Shown here: piece by piece, positions 18,347 through 34,141 of the stretch
Layout of the letters: every line of letters begins with the position of its first letter
Numbering within the stretch: position 1 is the stretch's first letter
The notes under the pieces: model-generated
The model's input: the letters and a program-made list of their open reading frames with translations, nothing else
Databases searched by the model: none
Told to the model about the DNA's origin: nothing
Program-made: the position numbers and the translations under genes
Assembly: GCF_009734385.1 (NCBI RefSeq)
Contig: NZ_CP046452.1
Span: 1,736,001 to 1,800,000, forward strand
Length of the DNA stretch: 64,000 nt
Direction of reading: 5' to 3'
Source of the DNA: Corynebacterium kalinowskii
GTDB lineage: Bacteria; Actinomycetota; Actinomycetes; Mycobacteriales; Mycobacteriaceae

Positions 18347-18393
18347 CAATTCCCGAAAAACGTTGCCTAGATCACATCGCATCCGCTAAATTG

Positions 18394-18409
18394 GTTAATG
18401 ACCATTAAC
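18394..18409. promoter_or_regulatory. TetR-type operator upstream of etfBA (copy 1 of 3)
   Basis: GTTAATGACCATTAAC: six-bp arms, four-bp spacer, 44-59 bases before the etfB start. It matches the palindromes at 32,512 and 34,124 that flank the catabolic locus and its TetR gene. Confidence 0.65.
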
Positions 18410-18452
18410 TGAAACACCCGCACCCTCGAACGACCTGCGGAAAGGATGCATT

Positions 18453-19220
18453 GTGAAGATCGTCGTGCTCGTAAAGGAAGTCCCTGACACCTACGGTGAA
18501 CGCCACCTCAGCCCAGAAACGGGTCTGACCGATCGCGAAAATGCCGACAACGTCCTTGATGAGATCTGTGAGCGCGCCATCGAGGCAGCGCTGGGTCTTA
18601 AACGGGATGGCGACGAGGTTCACCTCCTCGCCATGGCCCCTGCCAGCGCCGAAAAGAGCATCCGCAAAGGTCTGGCCATGGGCGCAGATGAAGCCGTGCA
18701 TATCGCAGATGAAAATCTGAAGGGCGCAGATCTCACGCTCACTGCGGAGGTGCTGGCCAAGGCCGTCGAAAAGCAGGGCTATGACCTGGTCGTGGCGGGC
18801 AACCTTTCCACGGACGGCAACGCCGGCGTACTCCCGACGATGATCGCGGAGCACCTGGGATGGCCCTACTTGACCCAGCTCACGGAGCTGAGCCTGGATC
18901 AGACTGCGAAAGGCAAGCGTTCCACGGAGGACGCGACCCAGGAGGTCGAAGCCGAGCTTCCCGTGGTTGTCTCCCTTACCGAGTCCTTTCCTGATCCGCG
19001 CTACCCGAACTTCAAGGGAATTATGGCTGCGAAGAAGAAGCCACTCACCACGCTGACCTGCACAGATCTCGGCGTAGACCCCGAGGATTTCTCCCACCCG
19101 CGCCTGATTATGACCGAGGCGTCCCAACGCCCACCGCGCGAAGCAGGCACGAAGATTACCGATGACGGTACCGCTGCCGCACAGCTCGCCGATTTCCTCG
19201 CCGCCAATTCCCTCATTTAA
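18453..19220 (+). CDS. etfB: Electron transfer flavoprotein, beta subunit
   Basis: The 255-residue protein has the ETF-beta features [30 protein letters not shown] and [16 protein letters not shown]. With EtfA it carries electrons from acyl-CoA dehydrogenases to the membrane quinone pool. The GTG start is preceded by AAAGGA. It is followed 10 bp later by etfA. The upstream operator suggests co-regulation with the acyl-CoA operon at 22.5-32.5 kb. Confidence 0.94.
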
Positions 19221-19230
19221 GGAGCCTGCC

Positions 19231-20130
19231 ATGAATATCCTCGTCATCACCTCCTCCCCTGCCGACGCCGCCGAGCTCCTCGGTGCCGCTGCTCAACTCG
19301 GCTCCCCCATCGCCCTCGCCGCCGACGCCAGCGGGCTCGCTGAGCTGGGCGCCGAGAAGATCTTCACTGCCCCAGCCGAGGCGCTTATCGACGCCGCCGA
19401 GCAGGTCTACGCCTCGGAGGCCCCCGCCGCTATCATCATTTCCAACTCGGCCACGGGTCGTGACATCGCTGCTCGCCTGTCGGTGCGTCTCAAGCTCGCG
19501 CTGGCTACCGATGCCATTGGGGTATCCCAGGACGAAGAAGGCATCATCATCAAGCACTCCGTCTTCGGCGGTGGCTACAACGTGACTTCTGCGCCAACGT
19601 TTGGCGCGCCGATCGTGACGCTGCGCAAGGGCGCCGTCAGCGAGCGAGCTGCGGCGGGTGCGGGCACGGTGTCAACGGTGGATGTCTCCGCGGGCGAGCG
19701 TCGCCTCGCTACTGTCCTGAATTCCTCCCCGATTGAAGCCAATACTGGCCGCCCAGCGCTGGTGGGAGCGAAGAAGGTTGTCTCCGGCGGTCGCGGTTTC
19801 GGCTCCCCTGAGGGATTCGAGCTGGTGGGCAAGCTTGCTGATTCCCTCGGCGCTGCGGTCGGCGCTTCCCGTGCTGCGGTGGATGCTGGCTATATCGAAC
19901 ACAACGCTCAGGTCGGACAGACCGGTGTCTCCATCTCTCCTGATTTGTACCTGGCGCTGGGTATTTCCGGCGCGATCCAACACCTGGCAGGCATGCAGAC
20001 CTCCAAGAACATCGTCGCGATTAACAAGGACCCAGAAGCTCCAATCTTCGAGATCGCAGACTTTGGCATCGTAGGCGACGTCTTCGAAATCGTGCCCAAG
20101 CTGATTGAGGAAATCGAGGCCCGCCGATGA
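19231..20130 (+). CDS. etfA: Electron transfer flavoprotein, alpha subunit
   Basis: The 299-residue protein has the FAD-binding C-terminal signature of ETF-alpha: [40 protein letters not shown] and [28 protein letters not shown] precedes the ATG at 19231; an in-frame upstream start would run inside etfB. It overlaps the next gene by four bases. Confidence 0.94.
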
Positions 20131-21557
20131 CAGCGCCCGCTTTGCGACGAGGACTGCCCCGGATCCCCGGTGGCGAGCCGTGGCCTCCTGAAGGCGTCTT
20201 CACTCCACCGGCCGCCGCGGAGCCAGTCGCCGCGACTGTAGCTTCTGCCATACCTCAGGAGGCACCAGCAGCTCCGGCTGTCACAACCCAGGAGCAGAGT
20301 CTGCGCCAAGGATTGCCACGCGTGCCAGGCGGCGAGCCGTGGCCGCCTGCTGCCGCGGTCGCTATTGCGGCTGCCCCGGTGACTGCAGCGACTGCCGCGC
20401 CGGAACCTGCTGCAGCTCAGCCAGCGGAGGTGAAGCGAGACGTCACCTATACCGATGTTTCCCTGCGCCGCGGTTTGCCACGCGTGCCAGGCGGCCAGCC
20501 ATGGCCAGAGATCACGAACGCCCAGGTCGCGCAGGTAGTTAAATCAAGTGTCCCGGTCGCGCCAGCAGCACCAGCTGCGGCGGCACCTGTCGCCACGGCG
20601 GTGCCAACTGCCGCACCGGCGGCTGCCGCACCGGTGGCAAAGCCAGCCAAGCAGCCAGCGCAGCAGGCGAAACAGGTAAAGAAGGAACCGGCCGTCGAAA
20701 AGCCAGCGTGGCTCGGAAAGGCCATCGCAGCGGGCATCGGCGTGTTGGCGTTGCTCGTTGTCGCGGTATTTGCCGCGCGCGGGTTCATGAACAATTCGGA
20801 CTTTACGCAGCGCTACACGGGTGTCGCACCGATGCCGGACAATGCGCCGGTGGGACTGCCTGCGTGGCTGGGCTGGTCACACTTCTTCAACATGTTCCTG
20901 ATGGTGATGATCATCCGCACCGGCCTGCAGATTCGTGGTGAGCGCAAACCACCTGCGTTCTTCACCTCGAAGTCCGGGAAGAAGGTCTCGCTGACGATTT
21001 GGTTCCATACGTCGCTGGACTTGTTGTGGCTGCTCAACGGTGCAGTGTTCATCGTGCTGCTGTTCGCTACCGGCCAGTGGATGCGCATCGTGCCGACGAG
21101 TTGGGAGATCTTCCCGAACATGGCCTCTGCCGCGATCCAGTACTTGTCTCTGGATTGGCCGGCCGAAAATGGTTGGATCCACTACAACGCGCTACAGCAG
21201 GTGGCGTACTTCATCACTGTATTCATAGCAGCACCACTCGCAGCTGCCACGGGCTTCCGCATGAGCAACTGGTGGCCGAAGAAGTGGACTTTCTTCCCAG
21301 TGGAGATTGCTCGTAAGCTGCACTTCCCGACGATGCTCTACTTCGTCCTCTTCATCATCGGCCACGTATTCCTCGTGTTTGCCACGGGCGTCAAGAAGAA
21401 TCTGGGACACATGTTCGCTGCTTCCCCGGACGGTGGCTGGCTCGGGATCATCTTGTTCCTGGTTGCCGTGCTTGTCACTGTCGGCGCCGCTTTCGCCGCC
21501 AAGCCACTGGTGCTCGCGCAGATCGCGCGACCATTCGGTGAGGTGACCAACCGCTAG
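20127..21557 (+). CDS. Cytochrome b-like membrane protein with triple N-terminal repeat, coupled to ETF
   Basis: The 476-residue protein has two parts. Residues 1-190 are Ala/Pro-rich and hold three copies of a 15-residue motif, LRxGLPRxPGGxPWP, near positions 6, 58 and 113. Residues 195-470 hold about six helices with paired histidines in membrane segments ([44 protein letters not shown]), as in two-haem cytochrome b/b561-type proteins. The ATGA overlap with etfA suggests it receives ETF electrons at the membrane. That role is inferred from gene order; a thiosulfate-reductase or formate-dehydrogenase gamma-like function is an alternative. Confidence 0.7.
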
Positions 21558-21569
21558 CGCCCAACAATT

Positions 21570-21605
21570 GGGGCAGTTCTCACGTTTCGAGAGCTGCCCC
21601 TTTTT
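21570..21605. terminator. Terminator after the etf operon
   Basis: Stem GGGGCAG..CTC / GAG..CTGCCCC followed by TTTTT. It lies between two convergent genes. Confidence 0.85.
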
Positions 21606-22310
21606 CTATTGCTGCTTGAGCTTTTGAACTAACAGCTCTGCAAGTTCCACCGACGACTGTGGATTCTGACCGGTGTACAGATTGCCGTCCGTCACCACGT
21701 GCGACCAGTAAGGGAAGGTGGCCTTTTGATAGTTGATTCCCGCATCTTTCAGCTCGGTCTCAAGCAGCCACCTTGCTTTCCAGGAGAAATAGTTCATCCG
21801 TTCCTCCACATTGGAAAGCGCGGTGAGAGTTCGACCCGCGAATGGGTTGTGTCCGTTTTCGTCATGCGCTGCAAGTACGGCTGCTGGGGCGTGACATAGC
21901 AACGCAAGCGGTCGGTCAGACAAAAGTCGGTTTCGGAGCAAGGCACCGGAAACGAGATCCACCGCGAGATCTTCCATCGGCCCATGCCCACCTGGATAAA
22001 ACACGAGATCAAATTCCGATTCAGCGACTTCATCCAACCGCATCGGCGACTCGAGCCAGCCTGAAATCTTGTCCAAGTAGGCGCGAATTTTCTCGCGTTT
22101 GGCCGGGGTACCTCCCATGAGCCCAAGGCTGAGCTTATCGACGACCGGCACTTGTCCACCCGGCGTCGCCAGAGTCAACTCAAATCCCGCCTCAGTAAAA
22201 ATCCTGTGTGGCTCGGCTAGTTCCTCGGCCCAGAATCCGGTGGGATGCTGGCTCCCATCCTTGAGAGTCCAGTGATCTGCAGCGGACACGACGAAAAGTA
22301 CTGTGGTCAT
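21606..22310 (-). CDS. DJ-1/PfpI superfamily protein, Hsp31-like
   Basis: The 234-residue protein has FYPGGHGPMEDLA with the conserved Glu region and the nucleophile elbow ALLCHAPAAVLAA, giving the catalytic Cys followed by His. This is the Hsp31-type layout of proteins with glyoxalase III or deglycase-like activity on methylglyoxal. It stands alone. Confidence 0.85.
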   Translation of the reverse strand: MTTVLFVVSAADHWTLKDGSQHPTGFWAEELAEPHRIFTEAGFELTLATPGGQVPVVDKLSLGLMGGTPAKREKIRAYLDKISGWLESPMRLDEVAESEFDLVFYPGGHGPMEDLAVDLVSGALLRNRLLSDRPLALLCHAPAAVLAAHDENGHNPFAGRTLTALSNVEERMNYFSWKARWLLETELKDAGINYQKATFPYWSHVVTDGNLYTGQNPQSSVELAELLVQKLKQQ

Positions 22311-22403
22311 TATTCGTCATCCTTTCTAGGTCGCTTGAGCATTGTGTGCCCCTTTATACCGACCTTCCTGCAGTACGCCTAGGACTTTTGAAGTCTGTTA
22401 TCG

Positions 22404-22432
22404 AAAAAGGGAGCGACCCTAAGGTCACTCCC
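22404..22432 (-). terminator. Terminator downstream of the catabolic operon
   Basis: On the minus strand the stem GGGAGTGACC / GGTCGCTCCC is followed by TTTTTCG. One mismatch lies in the middle of the stem. It lies 123 bp beyond the last gene of the long operon. Confidence 0.7.
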
Positions 22433-22492
22433 AGCCGAAAAAGATGATGTGGTTCGCCCTTGGCTTTAGGCTTGCAACTCATGTCTTCATGC

Positions 22493-22530
22493 CGTGGGTA
22501 TCTGCTGGGGCTAACAAACAGATACCCACG
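22493..22530. repeat. Perfect 12-bp hairpin after the catabolic operon
   Basis: CGTGGGTATCTG / CAGATACCCACG with a 14-base loop and no T tract. It may protect the 3' end of the operon mRNA. Confidence 0.5.
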
Positions 22531-22554
22531 ACAAGGACACTCATTCGCCGCTGA

Positions 22555-23334
22555 CTACATTTTGCGCAGCGTCAATGATTGCTCCGCGCGTCCGACCGGG
22601 CCGTTGATATCGTGCAAGGTCGATGCCGTGAGCCCAATCCCGTGCGGCCCCCACGTCACAGCTGTATCGAGCCCGGTCCACTCGCCCGCAGGCTGCCGGA
22701 ACAGGTGAATCGTGAGATCCACATTCGGAAACGCCCACTCTTCGGAAGACTGCCGAGGATTAATGCCGTTAGCCGGATCAACCCGACAGATGAATTCGGC
22801 GAGTGGGATGGGGTCATCGCCGTCGACAAGCGTGTGCGGCGAGGTCAACCAGGTCGCTCCCCGACCAGCGCGCTTTCGGGTGGCCTGGCGCGCAACGATC
22901 TGCCCGATGTATCCGCCGTCCCATTCCTGGCTGAACGCCCGCTCGGGACAGTCCTCGGGCGCTGGAAGCGGTTCGTACTCAACGCCTTCCACTGCCGAAG
23001 TATCCGAGGTAGCGAGGTACCAAGCGCGGGCAATGATAACCGGTCGATCACCGATGGTCGCAACAGCCTCCACCAGCTCAATCGTACGACCGGGGCGCTT
23101 TACTTCCACGGCGATGGAAACCGCTTGTAACGGCAGTCGCCCCAGAATGTCGAAAGAGATTCGGCTCAGGTCGAGCTTTCCGCCGTCATGCTGAACACGG
23201 TGCTGCTCAATCACATGCGTAACCAAGCCCGCGAGACTAGCGAAGTGATAATCCTCGGTTGACCAGGCCCCTTCCGCATGAATGGTTGGCTGGTAGGTGT
23301 CGCCCGAGATTCGAGTGAAGAATGAGGTTGTCAT
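22555..23334 (-). CDS. Acyl-CoA thioesterase family protein (double hotdog)
   Basis: The 259-residue protein resembles TesB-like double hotdog thioesterases of actinobacteria: N-terminal hotdog with SLAGLVTHVIEQHR and RISFDILGRLPL, C-terminal hotdog with FPNVDLTIHLFRQPAGEW and the ending GPVGRAEQSLTLRK. The start at 23334 lies four bases after the scoB stop. As the last gene of the operon it may release free acids or CoA from stalled intermediates. Substrate unknown. Confidence 0.7.
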   Translation of the reverse strand: MTTSFFTRISGDTYQPTIHAEGAWSTEDYHFASLAGLVTHVIEQHRVQHDGGKLDLSRISFDILGRLPLQAVSIAVEVKRPGRTIELVEAVATIGDRPVIIARAWYLATSDTSAVEGVEYEPLPAPEDCPERAFSQEWDGGYIGQIVARQATRKRAGRGATWLTSPHTLVDGDDPIPLAEFICRVDPANGINPRQSSEEWAFPNVDLTIHLFRQPAGEWTGLDTAVTWGPHGIGLTASTLHDINGPVGRAEQSLTLRKM

Positions 23335-23338
23335 CCCG

Positions 23339-23992
23339 CTACTCCGGCAATGCGTCGTCAAGCTCGACACGATAGTTAGCTGCGGTGTTCTTCTCGATAT
23401 CCATGAGCGTCACCTCGGGCGCGAGCTGACGGAGCACTAGGTGATCACCGTCGACGTCGAAGACCCCTAGGTCGGTGATGATGCGCTGCACCACTCCGAC
23501 ACCGGTCAGCGGCAACGTGCATTCGCGCACCAACTTCGGGGAGCCGTCTTTGGCCACGTGATCAGTGATGACCACTACGCGAGGGGTGCCGGCGACCAGA
23601 TCCATCGCACCACCCATGCCCTTGACCATCTTGCCCGGGATCATCCAGTTGGCCAGGTCGCCGTTCTGTGCGACCTCCATCGCCCCAAGGACAGCCATCT
23701 TGACCTTGCCACCACGGATCATGGCGAAGCTGGTGGCAGAGTCGAAGGTGGCAGCGCCCGGGATGAGGGTGACGGTCTGCTTACCTGCGTTAATAGTGTC
23801 GGCGTCTTCCTCGCCCTCGTACGGGAACGGCCCCATTCCAAGGATGCCGTTTTCACTTTGCAGCACGACCGACACCCCAGGTGGCAGGTGGTTAGCCACC
23901 ATGGTGGGGATTCCGATGCCGAGGTTGACGTAGTCGCCGTCTTTCAGTTCGGCAGCTGCCAGAGCTGCCATTTCATCACGAGTCCAAGGCAT
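23339..23992 (-). CDS. scoB: CoA-transferase subunit B
   Basis: The 217-residue family I CoA-transferase beta subunit has the catalytic Glu in [12 protein letters not shown], about residues 46-57, and [16 protein letters not shown] at the start. Such enzymes move CoA from succinyl-CoA to an organic acid, usually acetoacetate. Leucine breakdown yields acetoacetate, which fits; in M. tuberculosis the equivalent pair is also linked to itaconate activation. A 3-oxoadipate transferase (PcaJ) is the sequence alternative but no beta-ketoadipate genes are near. Confidence 0.88.
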
Positions 23993-24687
23993 TACCGGCT
24001 CCTTACCGTGCGTTGCTCAATCTGCTTGTCCAGGTCGGTGACCACCATGTGGTCGATGTGTACGCCCGGGGTGTGAATGAGGTCCGGATCGATCTCACCG
24101 ATACCAACGAGGTTTTCCACCTCGGCGATCGTCACCTGCCCTGACTCCGCGCAGAGCGGGTTGAAGTTGCGGGCGGTGCGGCGGTAGATGAGGTTTCCGG
24201 CTTCATCGCCCTGGTAGGCGTGCACGAGAGCAACATCGGCGACGATGCCACGCTCCATCACATACTCCCGCCCGTCGAATTCTGCGGTCGGCTTCCCCTC
24301 AGCGACAAGCGTGCCGACGCCCGTCGCCGTGTAAAACGCTGGAATACCTGCGCCACCAGCGCGAAGCCGTTCGGCAAGCGTGCCCTGCGGATTGAACTCA
24401 ACCTCTAATTCCCCAGCGAGGAACTGGCGAGCAAATTCCTTGTTCTCGCCGACATAAGACGAGAGCACCTTGCGGACCTGGCCGTTTTCCAGCAGCAGGC
24501 CGAGGCCTTTGCCGTCGACACCCATGTTATTGCTCACCACGGTGAGATCGCGGCGACCGACGTCGCGAAGCGCCTCGATGAGGAGGAACGGGACGCCGCA
24601 GAGGCCGAACCCGCCGACCGCGATGGTCATGCCGTCTTGGACAACGTCGCCGACCAATTCCTTGACGTTGGAGCGAACCTTATCCAT
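23992..24687 (-). CDS. scoA: CoA-transferase subunit A
   Basis: The 231-residue alpha subunit has the CoA-transferase start signature [22 protein letters not shown] and [25 protein letters not shown]. It pairs with scoB (one-base overlap) and begins directly after the acyl-CoA synthetase stop. Confidence 0.88.
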
Positions 24688-26397
24688 TTACACCCACCCC
24701 AATACACGTGGTGCCATTTCGCGCAGCTCGACCTTACGGACCTTGCCGGAGACCGTCATCGGGTAGGAATCCACGATGTGGACGTACTTCGGGATCTTGT
24801 GGCGCGACAGCTTACCCTGCGCGAACTCGGCAATTTCGTCTACCGTGAGGTCCTCTGTTTCATCATCGAGGATGATCCACGCCATGATTTCCTCGCCGTA
24901 CTTATCGTCCGGTACACCGATGACCTGCGCATCCACCACGTTCGGGTGGGTGAAGAGGAATTCTTCAATCTCGCGTGGGTAGATGTTCTCGCCGCCGCGG
25001 ATGAGCATATCCTTCAGGCGACCGGTGACCATGAGGTAGCCGTCTTCATCGAAGGTTCCAAGGTCGCCGGAACGCATCCAGCCATCCTCGCTGATGGCTT
25101 CAGCGGTCTTCTCAGGGTGCTCCCAGTAGCCCTGCATCACTGAGTAGCCGCGGACGTAGATCTCGCCTTGGGTACCAACGGGCACCGTTTCGCCGGTTTC
25201 TTCGTCGACAAGCTTGCACTCAATGTGCGGCATGATCTGACCGACGGTGGCGACGCGCTTTTCCAGAGGTGCATCGGAGCGGGTTTGGAAAGACACCGGG
25301 GAGGTTTCCGTCATGCCGTAGCAGATCGAAATGTCCTTCATATTGAACTTGTCCATCACCTCGCGCATCGTCTTGGACGGGCATGAGGTGCCGGACATGA
25401 TACCGGTGCGCAGGGTATCCAGGCCGTAGGGAGAGCCGTATTCCTCGTGGTCGTGTGCCTCGTCGAGCTCTTTGATGAACATGGTTGGTACGCCGTAGAG
25501 CGAGGTAGCCTTCGCCGCCTGCACCGCCATGAGGGTTTCGCGTGGCTTGAAAGATGGCGCGGGGACAATGAGGCAACCACCGTGGGAAAAGATGCCGATG
25601 GTGGCCATGACCATGCCGAAGCAGTGGAAGAATGGCACCGGCGCGCAGACGCGGTCTTCCTCGGTGTAGCCCAGGTTCTCGCCCACAAAGAAGCCATTGT
25701 TCAAAATATTGCGGTGCGTGAGCGTGGCGCCCTTCGGGAAGCCCGTGGTGCCAGAGGTGAACTGGATGTTGATCGCATCGGTGTTCTTCACCTCAGCCAC
25801 GTACTCGGACAGGTCATCGATGTCGCCGTGCATCGCGTCGTACCACTCGGAACCGCCGAAGTAGATAACTTCCTTCAGCTGAGATCCACGCTGCTTGCGG
25901 GCCTCATTGAGCATTGTGCGGTATTCCGAGTCCTTGAAGCGACGAGCCGCGAACACGAGCTTGATGCCGGCCTTTTCCACCACATAGTTCAGTTCGGACT
26001 GGCGGTAGGCCGGGTTAATGTTGACCAGCACCAGGCCGAGGTGGTGGCAGGTCCACTGCACCACGAGCCACTCCCAGCGGTTCGTCGACCAAATTCCGAT
26101 GCGATCCCCACGCCGGTAGCCGCGGCGAATCAGCTCACTGGAAAGTCGCAGGACGCGGTTGTAGAAGCGTTCGTAGGTGAAGGACACGTCCGCGTACACG
26201 TCCACGATGCAGTCGCGGGACGGGTACTTTTCCACCATCTGTCGCAGGATCTGGCCCAAGGTTTCCTCACGCAGCGGCGCGGCACCCTGGTCTACTCCAG
26301 CCCCAATGACGTGGGACATCAGCTGTCCGTTGTCGTCCACCACGATGGAACCGTAGGACGTTGACTTGGTCTTGATAGTGCTCAGTGAGGTTGTCAT
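24688..26397 (-). CDS. Acyl-CoA synthetase (AMP-forming), FadD35-like
   Basis: The 569-residue ligase has IQFTSGTTGFPKGATLTHRN (P-loop), YGMTETSPVS (adenine site), and MRSGDLGTFDEDGYLMVTGR followed by KDMLIRGGENIYPREIEE (hinge). It activates a carboxylic acid to acyl-CoA. Position between citE and scoA parallels fadD35 of the mycobacterial leucine locus. No branched-chain ketoacid dehydrogenase genes are in the window, so this ligase may feed isovalerate or another short acid into the operon. Confidence 0.88.
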   Translation of the reverse strand: MTTSLSTIKTKSTSYGSIVVDDNGQLMSHVIGAGVDQGAAPLREETLGQILRQMVEKYPSRDCIVDVYADVSFTYERFYNRVLRLSSELIRRGYRRGDRIGIWSTNRWEWLVVQWTCHHLGLVLVNINPAYRQSELNYVVEKAGIKLVFAARRFKDSEYRTMLNEARKQRGSQLKEVIYFGGSEWYDAMHGDIDDLSEYVAEVKNTDAINIQFTSGTTGFPKGATLTHRNILNNGFFVGENLGYTEEDRVCAPVPFFHCFGMVMATIGIFSHGGCLIVPAPSFKPRETLMAVQAAKATSLYGVPTMFIKELDEAHDHEEYGSPYGLDTLRTGIMSGTSCPSKTMREVMDKFNMKDISICYGMTETSPVSFQTRSDAPLEKRVATVGQIMPHIECKLVDEETGETVPVGTQGEIYVRGYSVMQGYWEHPEKTAEAISEDGWMRSGDLGTFDEDGYLMVTGRLKDMLIRGGENIYPREIEEFLFTHPNVVDAQVIGVPDDKYGEEIMAWIILDDETEDLTVDEIAEFAQGKLSRHKIPKYVHIVDSYPMTVSGKVRKVELREMAPRVLGWV

Positions 26398-26403
26398 GGC
26401 GGT

Positions 26404-27234
26404 CTAACTTTCTGTGCGAACTCGATTGATAATGGCTTGTGCTTGTCTAAACAGCGGTTCATCGACCATGCGGCCGTCGAAGGAGAAGGCACCTTGGTTC
26501 TTCTCGGCTTCCTTGAGCAATCGTGTCGCCCACTCAACTTTTTCCGGGGTGGGCTGGTAAGCCTCCCGAATCACCTCAACCTGCGAAGGGTGGATGCAGA
26601 CTGTCGCCGCGTAGCCGAGCGCGGCAGCGTCCTCTACTTCTGCCCGCAACCCGTCCTTGTTCGGGATGTCGATGTACACCGAATCCAGCGCGGCTTTGTC
26701 GAAAGCAGCGGCGGCCAGTTGCACACGCGCACGGGCATGCTTTGCGACGTCCCGATACGTGCCATCCGCATGCCGCGACGCGGTACCCGATAGGCCAGCT
26801 ACCAGGTCCTCAGCTCCCCAAAACATGGCCACGACGGCAGGCGCTTCAGCCACATCGTCGGCACGCAGCACTCCCCGCGGGGTCTCAATGAGAGCGATGA
26901 CTTGGGCGTCGTTAAGCACTGCGGTGACGGCGGCGATATCGGCAGTGCCTTCCGCCTTGGGCACCATCACCTGGCGAAATGGGGTCCTGGCTACGCTGGC
27001 CAAGTCGAGCGCACCGTCCGTGGAATGTGGCGGATTGATGCGCACGATGACCTTCGCTGGGTCGAGCTCGCAGGCTTCGATTGCCCGGCGCGCCTGTTCG
27101 CGGTTGGCTGGCTGGCAGCCATCCTCCAGGTCAAGGATGACCATGTCGGCGCGCTCGGCCGCCTTGTCGAAGCGATCCGCTCGATCGGCCGGGGTGAACA
27201 GGATCGCAGGCCCTAGCGGAGTCCAGCCACTCAT
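26404..27234 (-). CDS. citE: CitE-family beta-hydroxyacyl-CoA lyase
   Basis: The 276-residue TIM-barrel lyase has ILFTPADRADRFDKAAERAD, VILDLEDGCQP (acidic metal ligand), PKAEGTADI and MFWGAEDLVAGLSG. Citrate lyase alpha and gamma subunits are absent. The mycobacterial equivalent next to a MaoC gene (Rv2498c) cleaves (R)-HMG-CoA and (S)-citramalyl-CoA. The ATG at 27234 overlaps the maoC stop as ATGA, which decided the start. Confidence 0.85.
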   Translation of the reverse strand: MSGWTPLGPAILFTPADRADRFDKAAERADMVILDLEDGCQPANREQARRAIEACELDPAKVIVRINPPHSTDGALDLASVARTPFRQVMVPKAEGTADIAAVTAVLNDAQVIALIETPRGVLRADDVAEAPAVVAMFWGAEDLVAGLSGTASRHADGTYRDVAKHARARVQLAAAAFDKAALDSVYIDIPNKDGLRAEVEDAAALGYAATVCIHPSQVEVIREAYQPTPEKVEWATRLLKEAEKNQGAFSFDGRMVDEPLFRQAQAIINRVRTES

Positions 27235-27713
27235 GACTGCCCCTCCGGATCGCATTGCACCAAAGTCTTGCGAACGGCCTTGCAGACAATATCGCCGTGC
27301 TGGTTACGACCGATGTGCTCGAGCTCCACGATGCCTTGACCCGGGCGGGAGTTAGACAGGCGCTTGGATTTGCACACAGTTTCCGCGTAGAGGGTGTCGC
27401 CGTGGAACATCGGCTTAGGGAATGCGATTTCGTCGAAGCCGAGGTTGGCGACGATGGTGCCCAAGGTGAGTTGGCCAACAGACAGACCGACCACGGTGGA
27501 CAGGGTCCACATCGAGTTGACCAGGCGCTCGCCACCGAAGCCCGGCTGCTGGGAGGACCAGTGCGCGTCGAGGTGCAGTGGCTGGGTGTTCATGGTGAGG
27601 GTGGTGAACACGACATCATCGGTCTCGGTGACGGTGCGGCCAGGGCGGTGCAGGTAGCGCGCGCCTTCCTCGTATTCTTCGAACCAAAGTCCGCGCTGAA
27701 CAATATCGGCCAT
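27231..27713 (-). CDS. MaoC-like hydratase (itaconyl-CoA/methylglutaconyl-CoA hydratase type)
   Basis: The 160-residue single-hotdog protein has TMNTQPLHLDAHW, the hydratase loop carrying the catalytic Asn/Asp-x4-His, and PMFHGDTLYAET. It resembles Rv2499c, which hydrates itaconyl-CoA and 3-methylglutaconyl-CoA. It lies between the dehydrogenase and citE, exactly where that step belongs. The precise substrate is inferred. Confidence 0.8.
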   Translation of the reverse strand: MADIVQRGLWFEEYEEGARYLHRPGRTVTETDDVVFTTLTMNTQPLHLDAHWSSQQPGFGGERLVNSMWTLSTVVGLSVGQLTLGTIVANLGFDEIAFPKPMFHGDTLYAETVCKSKRLSNSRPGQGIVELEHIGRNQHGDIVCKAVRKTLVQCDPEGQS

Positions 27714-27715
27714 GA

Positions 27716-28873
27716 CTACAGCCCCAGTCCGCGGGCGATCAGCATGAGCTGCACCTCGGTGGTGCCCTCGCCGATTTCGAGGATCTTGGAATCACGGTAG
27801 TGGCGGGACACGCGGTACTCGTTCATGAAGCCGTAGCCACCGTGGATCTGAGTTGCGTCACGGGCGTTGTCCATGGCTGCCTCGGAGGAAACCAGCTTGG
27901 CGATGTACGCCTCTTTGCGGAAGTCCAGGCCCTTGGCCATGCGAGCTGCAGCAGCCATCCATGCCAAACGTGCGGTGTGCGCACGTGCCTCCATGCGAGC
28001 GATCTTGAAGGAAATCGCCTGGTACTCGCCGATGGCGCGGCCCATGGAGGTGCGCTCCTTGGCGTACTTGACGGACTCATCCACGCAACCCTGTGCGGCA
28101 CCGGTAGCAAGGGCTGCGATGGCGACGCGCCCCTCGGCCAGGATGGACAGGAAGTTGGCGAAGCCACGACCTCGCTCACCCAGCAGGTTCTCCTGTGGCA
28201 CACGGCAATCCGCGAAGGTCAGTGGGTGGGTGTCGGAGGCGTTCCAGCCAACCTTGTCGTAGGCCGGCTCGGCAACGAAACCAGGGGTGTCGGTCGGCAC
28301 GATGATGGTGGAGATTTCCTTCTTGCCGTCGCGCTCGCCGGTGACAGCAGTCACGGTGTTCAAAGAGGTGATGTTCGTGCCGGAGTTGGTGATGAACTGC
28401 TTGGAGCCGTTGATGATGAAGTCGGAGCCGTCTTCCACAGCGGTGGTACGAGTAGCACCGGCGTCGGAACCCGCGCCTGGCTCGGTGAGGCCGAAGCCTG
28501 CCAGCTTGGTGCCGGCGGTGAGCTCTGGGAGCCACTTTTCCTTCTGAGCGTCATTACCGAAGTGGAAAATCGGCATTGCACCCAGGCCGACACCAGCTTC
28601 CAAGGTGATGGCAACGGACTGGTCGACGCGAGCCAGCTCCTCCAGAGCGATACCGAAGGAGAGGTAGTCACCGCCCATGCCGCCAACTTCTTCAGGGAAT
28701 GGCAGTCCGAACAGGCCCATCTCGGCCATCCCGGAGACGATCTCGTATGGGAAAGAGTGGTCCTTGTCATGCTGGTAGGACACTGGGTCCACAACCTCGT
28801 TGGCAAACTCGCGGACGACGGTCTGCAGCTCGCGGTACTCTTCTGGCAGGTCGGAGATGTTGATATCAGTCAT
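27716..28873 (-). CDS. Acyl-CoA dehydrogenase, short branched-chain type (FadE19-like)
   Basis: The 385-residue flavoenzyme has LTEPGAGSDAGATRTTA (FAD/substrate), ATQIHGGYGFMNEYRVSRHYRD and LEIGEGTTEVQ. The Glu in GFMNEYRVSR sits at the position of the catalytic base of ordinary acyl-CoA dehydrogenases, whereas human isovaleryl-CoA dehydrogenase uses another position. So isovaleryl-, isobutyryl- or 2-methylbutyryl-CoA are all possible. It passes electrons to ETF, whose genes carry the same operator. Confidence 0.88.
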   Translation of the reverse strand: MTDINISDLPEEYRELQTVVREFANEVVDPVSYQHDKDHSFPYEIVSGMAEMGLFGLPFPEEVGGMGGDYLSFGIALEELARVDQSVAITLEAGVGLGAMPIFHFGNDAQKEKWLPELTAGTKLAGFGLTEPGAGSDAGATRTTAVEDGSDFIINGSKQFITNSGTNITSLNTVTAVTGERDGKKEISTIIVPTDTPGFVAEPAYDKVGWNASDTHPLTFADCRVPQENLLGERGRGFANFLSILAEGRVAIAALATGAAQGCVDESVKYAKERTSMGRAIGEYQAISFKIARMEARAHTARLAWMAAAARMAKGLDFRKEAYIAKLVSSEAAMDNARDATQIHGGYGFMNEYRVSRHYRDSKILEIGEGTTEVQLMLIARGLGL

Positions 28874-28886
28874 TTTTGGTGCCTTT

Positions 28887-30905
28887 CTAGTTCTGTGGTT
28901 CTACGGTTGCGAGGAGTTTTCCGGCCGGGACTTGTTCGCCCGGCTGGGCGTGGAAAGTGACAGTGCCGTCGACAGCGGCGCGGAGGGTGTGCTCCATCTT
29001 CATGGCCTCCACCACCAGGACTGCGTCGCCAGCTGCGACCTGAGCGCCGTCTTCGACCGAATGGGCGATGAGCGTGCCCGGCATTGGGGAGGTCAGTTCG
29101 GTATCGCCAGCGCCACCGTCGTCACTTGCGGATCGCACCACTTCAGTGCGGCGCAGCTCGAAGGAGCCTTCCGGCCCGGAGAGGACGATGTGGGCGAAGT
29201 CCGGCGCGAGTTCGGCAAGCGACCATTTGGCGGAGGTGCCGTCGATGGTCACGCGCCACTGCTGGCCCAATTGGTGGATCGTGGCGCGGACCGTGACTGG
29301 CTGCTGTTCGTCGGTATCAGCGGCATGGCCAGCGATGTGGTCGTGCACAGTCACTTCGGCGTCCGCCGGTGATCCTTGGATGGTGACCAACGTGTCGCCC
29401 TTGCCATAGGCAAACCGAATGCGCTGCGGTGCGGTACGACCTGGTCGCCAGCCATCTGGGGTGGCCCAGGCAGAGACCGAGCCGGATGGCCAGCGCTGAG
29501 CGATCCACATGAGGGCAGCTGCGACGAGTGCATCATCGGACACTGCAGTGGCTTCATATCCGTCGGTGACTCGGTCCAGCAGCCCGGTATCCAGGTCTCC
29601 GGAAACAACCTCCGGCACCTTCATCAGGTAGCGGCAGAAGTCCGTGTTCACGGTGACACCGGCAACGGTGGTTTCGGCCAAGGCCTTATCGAGCTTGGCG
29701 AGCGCATCCGCACGGTCGGAGCCGTGAACGATGACCTTCATCAACATCGGGTCATAGAGCGAAGAGATCTCGGAGCCGTCGGTGATGCCGGAATCCACGC
29801 GCACACCTGGTCCGGTTGGCTCAGTCACGGAAACAACGCGGCCGCCGGTTGGCAGGAATCCCTGGGCTGGGTCCTCGGCGTAGATGCGGGCTTCGATAGC
29901 GTGGCCAGTGAGCTGGATGTCCTCCTGAGTTATCGGGAGCTGCTCTCCCCTAGCCACGGTCAGCTGAAGAGCGACGAGATCCTGACCAGTGACCTCTTCG
30001 GTTACTGGGTGCTCGACCTGAAGGCGAGTGTTCATCTCCATGAAGAAGAACTGGTCCGGGCGGGCGGATGGCACGATGAACTCAACGGTGCCAGCGCCAA
30101 CGTAACCCACCGATCGCGCTGCATCGCAGGCTGCCTGGCCGATGCGCTCGCGGGTCTCGGCGTCGAGAAGCGGCGATGGCGCTTCTTCGATGACCTTCTG
30201 GTGGCGGCGCTGGAGAGAGCACTCGCGCTCGCCGAGGTGGATGACGTTGCCGTGCGTATCGGCCATGACCTGCACCTCAATGTGGCGCGGGGTGTCCACA
30301 AAGTGCTCGAGGAAGAGGGTGTCGTCACCGAATGCGCCCGCTGCTTCTCGACGCGCCGTCTTCAAAGCCTCCGCCAGGTCTTCGATTCTCTCCACGCGGT
30401 GCATACCCTTGCCACCGCCGCCTGCGGATGGCTTGATGAGCACTGGGAAACCGATGCCGGGAGCTGCCTCGATGATCTCCTGATCGGATAATCCAGGGCG
30501 GGAAATGCCTGGAACAGTTGGCACATCACGGGCCTCGACGGCAGCGCGGGCAGAAATCTTGTCGCCCATGGTCTCGATCGCTCTGGCCGGCGGGCCGATG
30601 AACACAATGTCGTTGGCAGCGCAGGCGTGGGCGAACTCGGCGTTCTCGGACAGGAAGCCATAGCCAGGGTGGATGGCTTGGGCGCCGGAGCGCTTGGCGG
30701 CGTCGATGATTTTGTCGATCACCAAGTAGGACTCGCGAGCAGGAGATGGTCCGATGTGGATCGCGATGTCGGCTTCCCGCACGTGTGGTGCATCGGCGTC
30801 GGCATCGGAGTACACGGCGACGGAGGTGACGCCCTGTTCTTTCAGGGTACGGATGACGCGGCAGGCGATTTCGCCGCGATTGGCTACTAATACGGTATCT
30901 ATCAT
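28887..30905 (-). CDS. accA1: Acyl-CoA carboxylase alpha subunit (biotin carboxylase-BCCP), methylcrotonyl type
   Basis: The 672-residue protein has a biotin carboxylase domain (VLVANRGEIACRVIRTL, PSAGGGGKGMH, MEMNTRLQVEHPVTE) in residues 1-450, a linker domain, and a biotinyl domain with the biotin Lys near 636 in VEAMKMEHT. The ATG at 30905 is preceded by GGAGAAA; a much longer open frame upstream merely overlaps accD and is not used. It works with the beta subunit just upstream. Confidence 0.92.
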   Translation of the reverse strand: MIDTVLVANRGEIACRVIRTLKEQGVTSVAVYSDADADAPHVREADIAIHIGPSPARESYLVIDKIIDAAKRSGAQAIHPGYGFLSENAEFAHACAANDIVFIGPPARAIETMGDKISARAAVEARDVPTVPGISRPGLSDQEIIEAAPGIGFPVLIKPSAGGGGKGMHRVERIEDLAEALKTARREAAGAFGDDTLFLEHFVDTPRHIEVQVMADTHGNVIHLGERECSLQRRHQKVIEEAPSPLLDAETRERIGQAACDAARSVGYVGAGTVEFIVPSARPDQFFFMEMNTRLQVEHPVTEEVTGQDLVALQLTVARGEQLPITQEDIQLTGHAIEARIYAEDPAQGFLPTGGRVVSVTEPTGPGVRVDSGITDGSEISSLYDPMLMKVIVHGSDRADALAKLDKALAETTVAGVTVNTDFCRYLMKVPEVVSGDLDTGLLDRVTDGYEATAVSDDALVAAALMWIAQRWPSGSVSAWATPDGWRPGRTAPQRIRFAYGKGDTLVTIQGSPADAEVTVHDHIAGHAADTDEQQPVTVRATIHQLGQQWRVTIDGTSAKWSLAELAPDFAHIVLSGPEGSFELRRTEVVRSASDDGGAGDTELTSPMPGTLIAHSVEDGAQVAAGDAVLVVEAMKMEHTLRAAVDGTVTFHAQPGEQVPAGKLLATVEPQN

Positions 30906-30916
30906 GGGAGTTTCTC

Positions 30917-32491
30917 CTACATCCGGAAGACGCCGAAGGCGGTATCTGGCAATGGGGATCCGGCGGCCACGTCGAGTGCGAGGCCGAGGATGCGGCGGGT
31001 ATCGGCTGGGTCGATGACGCCGTCGTCCCACAGTCGGGCGGTTGAGTAGTACGGGCTGGACTGGCGCTCGAATTGATCGCGGATCGGCTTCTCGAACTCC
31101 TCCTGCGCCTCTGCGGACCAGGTATCCCCTCCGCGCTCGATTTGATTCCGACGGACGGTGGACATGGTCATAGCAGCCTGTGGGCCGCCCATCACCGAGA
31201 TGCGAGCATTCGGCCACATCCACAAGAAACGCGGGCTGTAGGCGCGGCCACACATGGAGTAGTTGCCAGCACCGAAGGCACCGCCGATGACAACGGTGAA
31301 TTTCGGAACGCGGGCCGTGGCGACGGCGTTGACCATCTTGGCGCCGTGCTTCGCGATGCCGCCAGCCTCGTATTCGCGGCCCACCATGAAGCCGGTGGTG
31401 TTCTGCAAGAAGATGAGCGGAATGCCACGCTGGTCGCACAGCTCAATGAAGTGCGCCCCCTTCTGCGCTGCCTCACTCATCAGGATGCCGTTGTTGGCGA
31501 TGATGCCGACGCGGTGTCCGTAGATTCGGGCGAATGCAGTGACCAGGGTGGTACCGTACTCGGATTTGAATTCCTGGTACTCGCCGCCATCGGCAATGAT
31601 TTCGATGACTTCACGTACGTCATAAGGAACTTTGGCATCCACTGGGACGACGTCGTACAGCTCCTTTTGGTCACGCACCGGTTCGGACGGCTCAGAAACA
31701 TCCCACTCTGGTTGCTTGTCTTGCGGGAAGGTATCCACGATCTTACGAACGCGGTGCAGGGCGTCAGCATCGTCAAGCGCGAGGTGATCAGTCACGCCGG
31801 AGGTCTTGGAGTGCAGATCACCGCCGCCAAGATCTTCTGGAGTGACGTCTTCGCCGGTGGCAGCCTTCACGAGTGGCGGGCCCGCCAGGAAGATGGTGCC
31901 TTGCTCCTTCACAATCACAGCTTCGTCCGACATCGCCGGCACATAGGCGCCACCAGCGGTGCAGGAACCGAGCACAGCGGCTATCTGTGGGATCCCAGCC
32001 GCAGACATGCGAGCCTGGTTAAAGAAGATGCGGCCGAAGTGGTCGCGATCCGGGAACACCTCGTCTTGGTTCAGGAGCATTGCGCCACCGGAGTCCACCA
32101 GGTAGATACATGGGAGACGATTCTCGGCTGCAATTTCCTGGGCACGCAGGTGCTTCTTTACGGTCATCGGGTAGTAAGTACCGCCGGAGACCGTTGCGTC
32201 GTTGGCAACGATCATGCAGCGGCGCCCCTGAACGAGACCGATGCCGGCGACGGCACCCGCAGCAGGAACCTTTCCTTCGTACATGTCGCCTGCGGCAAGT
32301 GGAGCTACCTCGAGGAATGGGCTACCCGGATCCAGGAGTTCCTGAATGCGCTGACGTGGCAGCAGTTTGCCACGGCTCACGTGTCGTTCGCGGGCACGCT
32401 CCGAGCCACCTTGGGCGGCGGTGGATACCTTTTCGCGCAGTTCCGCGACGAGTTCTTCGTGGCGCTGGCGGTTCGTTTGTGGTGCTGTCAT
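30917..32491 (-). CDS. accD1: Acyl-CoA carboxylase beta subunit, methylcrotonyl-CoA type
   Basis: The 524-residue carboxyltransferase has [59 protein letters not shown] and [20 protein letters not shown]. These follow methylcrotonyl-CoA carboxylase beta subunits more than propionyl-CoA ones. It is the first gene of the nine-gene operon. A TetR-type palindrome lies 21-36 bases before its ATG and overlaps the expected promoter. Confidence 0.9.
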
Positions 32492-32511
32492 GGGTTCGCT
32501 TCCAACTTTCA

Positions 32512-32527
32512 GTTAATGACGATTAAC
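32512..32527. promoter_or_regulatory. TetR-type operator upstream of the carboxylase operon (copy 2 of 3)
   Basis: GTTAATGACGATTAAC, extendable by one base each side to AGTTAAT-N4-ATTAACT. It lies 21-36 bases before accD1, where a repressor would block transcription. Confidence 0.7.
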
Positions 32528-32584
32528 TTAAAACAGAGCGTACCCAGTTATGTGACCCAGAACACTAAGGTCTCGTTGTTAATT

Positions 32585-32615
32585 TTGCGTCACACACGTT
32601 TGCAAAGTGTGACGC
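32585..32615. promoter_or_regulatory. Inverted repeat holding a RamB-like motif upstream of accD1
   Basis: Ten-bp perfect arms TGCGTCACAC / GTGTGACGCA with an 11-base spacer. On the minus strand 32,598-32,610 reads CACACTTTGCAAA, close to the published corynebacterial RamB motif ending ACTTTGCAAA. A carbon-source regulator could act here; this is inference. Confidence 0.35.
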
Positions 32616-32617
32616 AT

Positions 32618-32644
32618 GAAAAAAGGGTGCTATATGCACCCTTT
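32618..32644 (-). terminator. Terminator of the citE2-tetR operon
   Basis: AAAAGGGTGC / GCACCCTTTT with loop TATAT, followed on the minus strand by TTTTTT. It separates the regulator from the downstream carboxylase operon. Confidence 0.85.
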
Positions 32645-32669
32645 TCGTCCCCAGCCCAAGTGATCCACG

Positions 32670-33278
32670 TCACCCCTTGCGAATACCCCCAGAGAGCAGC
32701 GCATCGACAGCCATCAGATAAGCCTGTTCCCGCACCAGATCTTCCCCAGCCCAATGAATCACGTAGCGCACCGAGTTAATGAGGCCTGCAGCCAGCTGAA
32801 CACGAAGGCGCGCAGTGGCGCGGCCCAGGTCCGGCCGACACTCCAGCAACACATCAGTCCACAGGCGCAGATAGGTCAGCTGCAACGAACGCACCTTAGT
32901 TAGTGCTTCCGGTTCCAGATTGTGAATTTCGCGCCCTTGCACCCTAATAATGTCCGGCTCATTCGAAGCGAACTCCACATGGCGCGTTACGAGGGCGCGC
33001 ATCAGATCTTCTGGGTCCGTTGAACCAGATTCCGCATGCTCCGCCATGGCGGCTCGAGCGCCGTCGACAAGCCTGATCGAGATATCTACCAGCAGCATCT
33101 CCAGCAACTCATCCTTGCTGGCGAAGTGGCGCAGCACGCCCGGGCCAGAGATGCCCACCTCGGCACCGACATCACTCAGACGGGTTTGATGGAAGCCCCG
33201 CACCGCCATGATGCGAGCCGCCGCAGCCAGCAGTTCCTTACGACGCTGAATCTTGGCAAGTTCCCTAGCTGTTGGCAC
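32670..33278 (-). CDS. TetR-family regulator, BkaR-like
   Basis: The 202-residue protein has an N-terminal TetR helix-turn-helix (AARIMAVRGFHQTRLSDVGAE, GISGPGVLRHFASKDELL) and a helical ligand domain. The GTG start overlaps citE2 by 14 bases. Its place next to accD1/accA1 matches the mycobacterial regulator of branched-chain ketoacid catabolism (Rv2506/BkaR). The three GTTAAT-N4-ATTAAC palindromes, one before its own operon, are the likely targets; an acyl-CoA is the likely ligand. Confidence 0.82.
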   Translation of the reverse strand: MPTARELAKIQRRKELLAAAARIMAVRGFHQTRLSDVGAEVGISGPGVLRHFASKDELLEMLLVDISIRLVDGARAAMAEHAESGSTDPEDLMRALVTRHVEFASNEPDIIRVQGREIHNLEPEALTKVRSLQLTYLRLWTDVLLECRPDLGRATARLRVQLAAGLINSVRYVIHWAGEDLVREQAYLMAVDALLSGGIRKG

Positions 33279-34104
33279 GCGCCACCACCCGTTTCGCCTG
33301 GGAAATCAGTGGCGCGTCGATCATCTCCCCATCGAGCTTGAATGCGCCCGGAAAGTTCTGCGCCTCCGCAACGACCCGGCGCGCCCACTCAAGTTGCTCC
33401 GGGGCAGGCGCGAATGCGCGACGCACCACGTCTAGCTGCAGCGGATGAATGCAGGCGAAACCGATGAAGCCAGAACGGGCAGCGTCCACCGCCTCCAAGA
33501 ACAGGCCCTCTTCATCGCGAAAGTCTGCATGAACTGCGTCAATGACGAACTTTCCATGCGCGGCAGCATGGATCTGCATCAGAGATCGGGTGAGCGCCAT
33601 GGCGTTGCGGTACGGACCTGGTCGACTGGCAGGCGCCCCCTCATCCAGCTGCAACCTCGAGTGCGTGCCGCCAAGAAGCACGGTGAGATCCTCGGCACCC
33701 CAGAACATGCCGACTACATCGGGGTGCGCAGCAAGCTCGGGAAGCTTCACGACGGCCTGTGGTGTCTCCACCATTGCGATGACCTGCAGCCCGGATAGCT
33801 CGGCCGGGATATGGTCGACAACTTTAGGCACCATGACCAGCGAATACGGGGTGGTCCGCACGAATTCAACGTCATTGGTGAAGTGCTCGGAGTCAGGCCC
33901 CACCACGCGGACGATGGTCTTTTGGGGATCAAGCCCACATTCCGCAATATTGCGGTAGGCCTCTTCCCTGTCGATATCTCCTGCCCCGTCCTCGAGGTCA
34001 AGAATGACCATGTCCGCCTTTGCCGCAGCCTTAGGGATAATGTCTGCACGCCCTGCTGGGGCAAACAAGATAGCGGGACCCGCGATGAGATGGTCGAAGT
34101 GCAT
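33265..34104 (-). CDS. Second CitE-family lyase, co-transcribed with the TetR gene
   Basis: The 279-residue protein is a paralogue of the CitE at 26.4 kb: AILFAPAGRADIIPKAAAKAD, VILDLEDGAGDIDREEA, VVGMFWGAEDLTVLLGG and GFACIHPLQLDVVRRAF. It is clearly diverged from the other copy, so it may act on a different beta-hydroxyacyl-CoA. It is the first gene before tetR and has the third operator 20 bases upstream. Confidence 0.82.
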   Translation of the reverse strand: MHFDHLIAGPAILFAPAGRADIIPKAAAKADMVILDLEDGAGDIDREEAYRNIAECGLDPQKTIVRVVGPDSEHFTNDVEFVRTTPYSLVMVPKVVDHIPAELSGLQVIAMVETPQAVVKLPELAAHPDVVGMFWGAEDLTVLLGGTHSRLQLDEGAPASRPGPYRNAMALTRSLMQIHAAAHGKFVIDAVHADFRDEEGLFLEAVDAARSGFIGFACIHPLQLDVVRRAFAPAPEQLEWARRVVAEAQNFPGAFKLDGEMIDAPLISQAKRVVARANS

Positions 34105-34123
34105 GTCAGGCTCCTTGGGCGTT

Positions 34124-34141
34124 AGTTAATCTCGGTTAACT
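34124..34141. promoter_or_regulatory. TetR-type operator upstream of citE2-tetR (copy 3 of 3)
   Basis: AGTTAATCTCGGTTAACT, one mismatch between the arms, same four-base spacer as the other two copies. It starts 20 bases before the citE2 ATG and suggests autoregulation. Confidence 0.65.

Follow-up and report, generated by a model that had tools for sequence, protein, structure and literature searches.

Predicted BkaR-type operators at three promoters link leucine degradation to a second electron transfer flavoprotein in Corynebacterium kalinowskii

A 64,000-nucleotide stretch of the Corynebacterium kalinowskii genome (contig NZ_CP046452.1, positions 1,736,001 to 1,800,000; hereafter the window) contains three near-identical palindromes, each in front of a transcription unit: the probable leucine-degradation operon that begins with accD1, the citE2-tetR pair, and a unit encoding an electron transfer flavoprotein (ETF; etfB2 and etfA2) and a cytochrome-b561-like membrane protein. 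We consider it very probable that the three palindromes are operators of one BkaR-type repressor, the product of tetR, which would control the three units jointly, leave the DNA in response to an acyl-CoA and thereby allow the acyl-CoA dehydrogenase of the pathway to receive its own ETF. This reading draws, by sequence comparison, on the sites, their rarity and conservation, their identity with the published BkaR operator, the homology and locus of the TetR protein and the presence of two ETFs, and from these we infer binding, repression, the inducing ligand, an effect of GlxR and what the cytochrome does. A first-pass annotation of the window had proposed that the encoded TetR controls etfBA, the accD1 operon and citE2-tetR jointly, and this is the best reading, the motif matching the BkaR operator and the TetR being the sole strong protein of the SACE_7040/BkaR type in the genome.

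A search of the window with AGTTAATNNNNATTAACT, allowing up to three mismatches, returned the sites at 18393-18410 (one mismatch), 32511-32528 (none) and 34124-34141 (one mismatch), and a fourth match at position 9255 with three mismatches, which is of chance grade; shuffled versions of the window gave a mean of 0.39 matches at this threshold, and none of 100 reached four. The three near-exact palindromes of the first-pass annotation are thus real, with two of their starts (18394 and 32512) placed one base too high for the 18-mer and the third (34124) correct. In the whole genome, a single contig of 2,510,218 bases, the three window sites are the only matches at zero or one mismatch; three further matches appear at exactly two mismatches, and the 28 matches at up to three equal the 28 obtained with a reversed control pattern. 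Sixteen simulated genomes of the same size, eight from first-order and eight from third-order Markov models of the window, contained on average 0 and 0.125 matches, respectively, at up to one mismatch, 1.0 and 1.4 at up to two, and 19.6 and 20.5 at up to three. Because the simulated genomes give 0-0.13 matches at up to one mismatch, the three sites lie far beyond chance, and the sites with two or three mismatches are at chance level. Many copies at unrelated sites, which according to the first-pass annotation would contradict joint control, did not turn up in this genome-wide search. The sites stand 42 nt (etfB), 19 nt (accD1) and 19 nt (citE2) upstream of the respective start codons. The GAC common to two of the spacers, to which the annotation had drawn attention, carries no weight: with etfB and accD1 on opposite strands, it does not have the same orientation at the two sites, and relatives differ in the spacer.

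The protein encoded by tetR has a TetR domain (PF00440, 46.9 bits), matches the PDB sequence 4g12 at 5e-32 and scores 162.5 bits against the SACE_7040 model NF050111, by far the best value in the genome; 13 further TetR-like proteins match the same family model, all far more weakly, the best of them reaching 41.6 bits. To judge from these matches and from the locus, the window TetR is the Corynebacterium counterpart of mycobacterial BkaR, and the motif is, by the same kind of comparison, the published operator of that protein. Regulator and operator type alike are already known from mycobacteria. In the passages available to us, the BkaR operator is described with gel-shift, reporter and array data as having the 16-bp core GTTA(N)T(N4)A(N)TAAC, with the sites AGTTAATGACGACTAACT in M. 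smegmatis and AGTTAATGATAATTAACT in M. tuberculosis, and BkaR is reported to regulate its own gene and to control the accD1 operon (PMC3920632). This core is exact at 18394 and 32512, the etfB site being one base off in the first arm of the palindrome, and deviates in one position at 34125 (GTTAATCTCGGTTAAC). At up to one mismatch, the core has four matches in the genome, the fourth at C1:1055242, vs one for the control.

The operator of accD1 is conserved in the genus and, to a large extent, in the order. Among 121 Corynebacterium genomes, that of C. kalinowskii included here and throughout, 29 carry the TetR, and in 26 of these the start of accD1 could be read beside tetR. All 26 have the operator in the 260 nt upstream of accD1 at up to two mismatches of 14 (6 exact, 12 with one and 8 with two), and these cases are not independent because several genomes are near-copies (e.g., G069, G034, G101, G098). 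One of the genomes, G045, has two further operator-like sites with one mismatch away from the cluster (C1:309036 and 1036844), and in three loci (L046, L048 and L051, from G039, G020 and G117) the TetR match runs over one TAG. In the order, TetR relatives (E <= 1e-20) are present in 41 of 61 genomes, again including that of C. kalinowskii. Besides its own locus, 29 loci among the matches listed were read; accD1 lies beside the TetR gene in 21, all outside the genus, and others show different genes of the pathway. Nineteen of the 21 have an operator match at up to two mismatches in the 250 nt before accD1; 10 of these are exact, 2 have one mismatch and 7 have two, a two-mismatch match alone being weak because the order-level pattern has 10 fixed bases.

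The etfB site has a more restricted distribution, which follows the type of ETF. All 121 genus genomes have etfB (E <= 1e-20), and eight, among them that of C. kalinowskii, with its other copy at C1:973359, have two, giving 129 matches. Each of the eight carries the TetR, for which the chance probability is about 5e-6 assuming independent draws, which related genomes are not; each also has one etfB copy within about 17 kb of tetR. In a tree of the 40 copies that were read, which comprises 13 type-B and 27 type-A copies, the window and housekeeping copies of C. kalinowskii are separated by a branch with 100/100 support, and the copy near tetR is of type A in 8/8 two-ETF genomes. By this phylogeny, the two ETFs of the genome belong to clades that are deeply separated, and the window etfBA is not the housekeeping ETF. 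Thirty of the copies were scanned in one operator search, and five, those of the window, G019, G089, G088 and G045, have an operator at up to two mismatches just upstream; in all five species the site has zero or one mismatch (none in G019), and its flanks differ. No operator was found at the other 35 of the 40 copies, namely all 13 type-B copies, all 18 lone type-A copies, a further type-A copy in G117, and the copies linked to tetR in G117, G031 and G109. The eight tetR-linked copies therefore divide into five with their own operator, one inside the accD1 operon and two with neither. In the one inside the operon (G117), etfB2, etfA2 and the cytochrome gene begin 23 nt after scoB without a site of their own, which they do not need because they lie within the accD1 operon; as read from the gene order, this arrangement is an alternative route to the same coupling. 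TetR carriers with a type-B ETF only (G069, G056, G001, G086, G112, G107, G039) have no etf site where read. Since the type-B and unlinked copies are siteless, control of etf by the TetR would extend, among the copies read, only to the second ETF that is linked to it. The joint control proposed by the first-pass annotation thus gains from the etfB site in 5/5 species with a separate etfB2 unit near the accD1 operon; what it missed is that the pair is not the only ETF of the cell but a second, cluster-linked one.

Several observations weigh against joint control or against its generality. A scan for promoters of the E. coli type found none at any of the three sites, and the score of the TetR, about 163 bits, is below the curated NCBIfam cut-off of 250 for NF050111. 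The paper on mycobacterial BkaR names no etf target, and 'etf' occurs 0 times in its text (PMC3920632). Some of the seven order-level operators with two mismatches may be due to chance. Three genus genomes (G031, G109 and G086) carry the TetR with no accD1 in the fetched stretch and no operator at up to one mismatch near the TetR gene, G031 having one two-mismatch match inside a neighbouring gene. Two of them (G031 and G109; L116 and L117) have the etfB2-etfA2-cytochrome genes beside the TetR, with no operator at up to one mismatch and no accD1 in 19.9 kb. In G020, the TetR, accD1 and the accD1 operator are present, and the only ETF is a type-A pair with the cytochrome, far off and siteless. 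G031, G109 and G020 speak against a strict rule.

Other explanations of the three sites differ in how they fare with this evidence. A short, A+T-rich palindrome might be repeated by accident, and at up to three mismatches its genome count is indeed no higher than that of the control. At up to one mismatch, however, 0-0.13 matches are expected per genome vs three observed, all of which precede the opening gene of a unit, and the sites are conserved in relatives; rarity in the genome, conservation in 26/26 genus genomes and the simulated genomes refute a chance origin, for which the remaining probability is negligible. It could also be that the TetR owns the accD1 and citE2 sites, and that a different TetR-type protein with a similar operator acts at the etfB site, in which case there would be no joint control. 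We regard this as quite improbable: the genome does encode the 13 other TetR-like proteins, and the etfB copy does differ by one base in its first arm, but all 13 matches are far weaker than that of the window TetR, the etfB2 site is kept at zero or one mismatch in 5/5 species, and, among the 40 etfB copies read, the site is confined to genomes with a TetR of the window type.

A third explanation accepts the site and denies its function. The second ETF would be a general carrier that merely lies near the leucine genes, with an operator left over from a rearrangement and with another dehydrogenase as its main partner. That the type-A etfBA is the sole ETF in 18 congeners of the tree, 17 of them without the TetR and none with the site, fits such a role, as does the presence of one more acyl-CoA dehydrogenase in the genome (C1:261916). 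Against this, the type-A copy lies near tetR in all eight two-ETF genomes and within the accD1 operon itself in G117, and we hold the general-carrier explanation to be unlikely, if less so than a second reader of the etfB site. Joint control by the BkaR-type repressor therefore remains our preferred interpretation.

Five etfB2 upstream regions align by eye as TTGCNN, 17-19 nt, TANNNT and the operator, a layout that appears to resemble the housekeeping promoter of C. glutamicum, for which the consensus TTGNCA / GNTANANTNG is given in the passages seen (PMC3917453). The operator would then directly follow the -10 hexamer, a position at which a bound repressor would block RNA polymerase. A second conserved element lies upstream of the accD1 operator: an exact GTG-N8-CAC box lies within 75 nt of the operator in 23 of 26 genus genomes (0.33 expected from shuffles), and 21 of these 23 boxes are 20-33 nt from it; none of 19 accD1 loci of other genera has it (0.39 expected). 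The box resembles the binding site of GlxR, a regulator of the CRP type for which the accessible passages give the site TGTGANNTANNTCACA, a mostly activating role and the structures 4cyd, 4byy and 3r6s (PMC4254451). A close relative of C. glutamicum GlxR is encoded at C1:2241980, with about 427 bits over 221 residues to these three structures. When the ten outer bases of the GlxR consensus are scored and the TA centre is not, the best match has one to three mismatches in 24 of 26 accD1 regions; taken singly, 14 of these regions and none of five etfB2 regions reach p < 0.05. The etfB2 promoters have a half-kept box, GTT-N8-CAC only (18362-18375 in the window; p 0.11-0.28), which could just as well be a conserved -35 element, and no GlxR-like box was seen by eye at the citE2 promoter. 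In the genus, transcription from the accD1 promoter would probably respond to GlxR-cAMP as well. A box over the -35 region, if the promoter placement is right, would suit repression, yet GlxR is mostly an activator.

The units concerned are summarized in Table 1. The products of the accD1 operon (32491 to 22555) include a MaoC hydratase, a CoA ligase, two CoA-transferase subunits and an acyl-CoA thioesterase, and AccD1-AccA1 has been described, in the part of the source seen, as the mycobacterial methylcrotonyl-CoA carboxylase that acts in leucine breakdown (PMC4347857). Searched with PF02770, the genome shows a single further acyl-CoA dehydrogenase, at G000:C1:261916 (L129). The window etfB2-etfA2 pair has the ETF domains, including the FAD-binding domain of the alpha subunit, and citE2 and tetR form a two-gene unit with overlapping ends. 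A hairpin scan of the region found three terminator-like structures vs 1.1 expected.

Table 1. Genes, predicted regulatory sites and terminator-like structures at the locus (window coordinates).
Feature	Position	Strand	Basis
Putative etfB2 promoter: -35 TTGCCT (18363-18368), 18 nt, -10 TAAATT (18387-18392) abutting the operator	18362..18392	+	By-eye alignment of five etfB2 upstream regions
Predicted BkaR-type operator of the etfB2 unit, GGTTAATGACCATTAACT	18393..18410	+	Motif search; kept in 5/5 species with a separate etfB2 unit near the accD1 operon
etfB2, ETF beta subunit (second ETF)	18453..19220	+	Pfam PF01012
etfA2, ETF alpha subunit	19162..20130	+	PF00766, PF01012; open reading frame, true start may lie further in
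Cytochrome-b561-like membrane protein, 476 aa, third gene of the etf unit	20127..21557	+	PF01292, 28.9 bits, narrowly missing the cut-off of 30.1
Terminator-like hairpin at the end of the etfB2-etfA2-cytochrome unit, 12 pairs, T tail	21570..21600	+	Hairpin scan
Terminator-like hairpin at the end of the accD1 operon, 10 pairs, T tail	22409..22432	-	Hairpin scan
Probable leucine-degradation operon accD1-accA1-acyl-CoA dehydrogenase-maoC-citE1-fadD-scoA-scoB-acyl-CoA thioesterase	22555..32491	-	Domain and profile matches
Predicted BkaR-type operator of the accD1 operon, exact	32511..32528	-	Motif search; genus comparison
GTG-N8-CAC, GlxR (CRP)-like box upstream of the accD1 operator	32552..32565	-	Genus and order comparison
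tetR, BkaR/SACE_7040-type repressor gene, behind and overlapping citE2	32670..33278	-	Profile search, sequence match, locus
citE2, HpcH/HpaI-type C-C lyase, first gene of the tetR unit	33265..34104	-	Domain matches
Predicted BkaR-type operator of citE2-tetR (autoregulation)	34124..34141	-	Motif search; G045 (L111) is arranged likewise

The third gene of the etf unit encodes a protein with three N-terminal LRRGLPRxPGGxPWP repeats ahead of its membrane part. Relatives (E <= 1e-15, some partial) are present in 62 of the 121 genus genomes, and among the lone type-A ETF genomes of the tree, 17/18 have the cytochrome beside etfBA by coordinates, G002 giving no match. Eighteen stretches beside etfBA were compared with six unlinked ones; the loci concerned include the window, L111-L117 and L146-L156. 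The pattern GLPR..GG occurs in 17 of 18 linked proteins and in none of six unlinked ones; the eighteenth linked protein (L112) has three altered copies by eye. The membrane part is 51-77% identical to that of the window protein in the other linked proteins and 46-60% in the unlinked ones. The unlinked protein of L146 begins, after two residues, with LHDGLPDKEG, possibly a remnant. Three letter strings of the repeat that were tried did not occur in the open-licence literature. Our guess is that the LRRGLPR repeat docks ETF. In mycobacteria, the membrane outlet from ETF to menaquinone is EtfD, which in the passages seen is described as having heme b, to which the outlet role of the window cytochrome may be likened, and, unlike that protein, iron-sulfur clusters (PMC13083937); in the product of 20127-21557, neither 4Fe-4S nor CCG domains were found, the weak cytochrome b561 match being its sole Pfam match. 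An EtfD-like protein of 878 aa with a long C-terminal tail of the PPVATPPVA type is encoded elsewhere in the genome (G000:C1:276000-284000, L157), and the housekeeping ETF therefore probably has the usual outlet. We suggest only tentatively that leucine catabolism here has a private, co-induced outlet, in which electrons from the second ETF would go to a b-type membrane cytochrome reserved for it; this cytochrome would bind ETF through the tandem LRRGLPRxPGGxPWP peptides and stand in for the iron-sulfur protein EtfD of the housekeeping ETF.

Regulons of the LiuR/LiuQ type can include etf genes. LiuR (MerR) and LiuQ (TetR) of Proteobacteria resemble the present system, as far as the sources were seen, in that one regulator serves several units of branched-chain amino acid catabolism (PMC5343134, PMC3223726); unlike the window TetR, LiuR is not a TetR protein, and 'etf' occurs 0 times in both texts. 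The closest likeness is to BkaR (Rv2506 / MSMEG_4718), with a TetR gene beside accD1-accA1, the 16-bp operator core and, as predicted here, autoregulation and control of a neighbouring operon. Unlike in the BkaR regulon, to the extent that it is covered by the passages seen, tetR is here the second gene of an operon with citE2, a second etfBA-cytochrome unit has an operator, and the promoter of the regulator's own unit has one operator (34124-34141), vs two in the mycobacterial species (PMC3920632). PccD of Mycolicibacterium and its homologues AccR and BkdR belong to the same TetR family and have a similar operator beside acyl-CoA carboxylase genes; unlike the window TetR, PccD has been studied for propionyl-CoA metabolism, and the passages seen contain no ETF target (PMC11596240). 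The type of system is known; new, as far as seen, are the presence of a cluster-linked second ETF and its cytochrome among the targets, and the GlxR-like box that accompanies the accD1 operator. In the open-licence literature, no joint mention of BkaR with an electron transfer flavoprotein was found, nor one that combines Corynebacterium, leucine degradation, TetR and an electron transfer flavoprotein, both being weak evidence of novelty.

Taken together, a TetR dimer would sit on each operator, at the transcription start of the accD1 operon, of citE2-tetR and of the etfB2-etfA2-cytochrome b unit. When an acyl-CoA of the pathway builds up, the repressor would come off the DNA and all three units would be transcribed together, so that the acyl-CoA dehydrogenase step, from its context probably that of isovaleryl-CoA, would be supplied with its own electron acceptor; the second ETF would probably have its own membrane outlet, separate from that of the housekeeping ETF. 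The bacterium thus probably switches on leucine breakdown together with its own electron exit. A known repressor regulon would in this way be extended from carbon chemistry to electron handling, which suggests that pathways can come with an ETF of their own that is induced alongside, and the short repeat of the cytochrome may be an ETF docking peptide.

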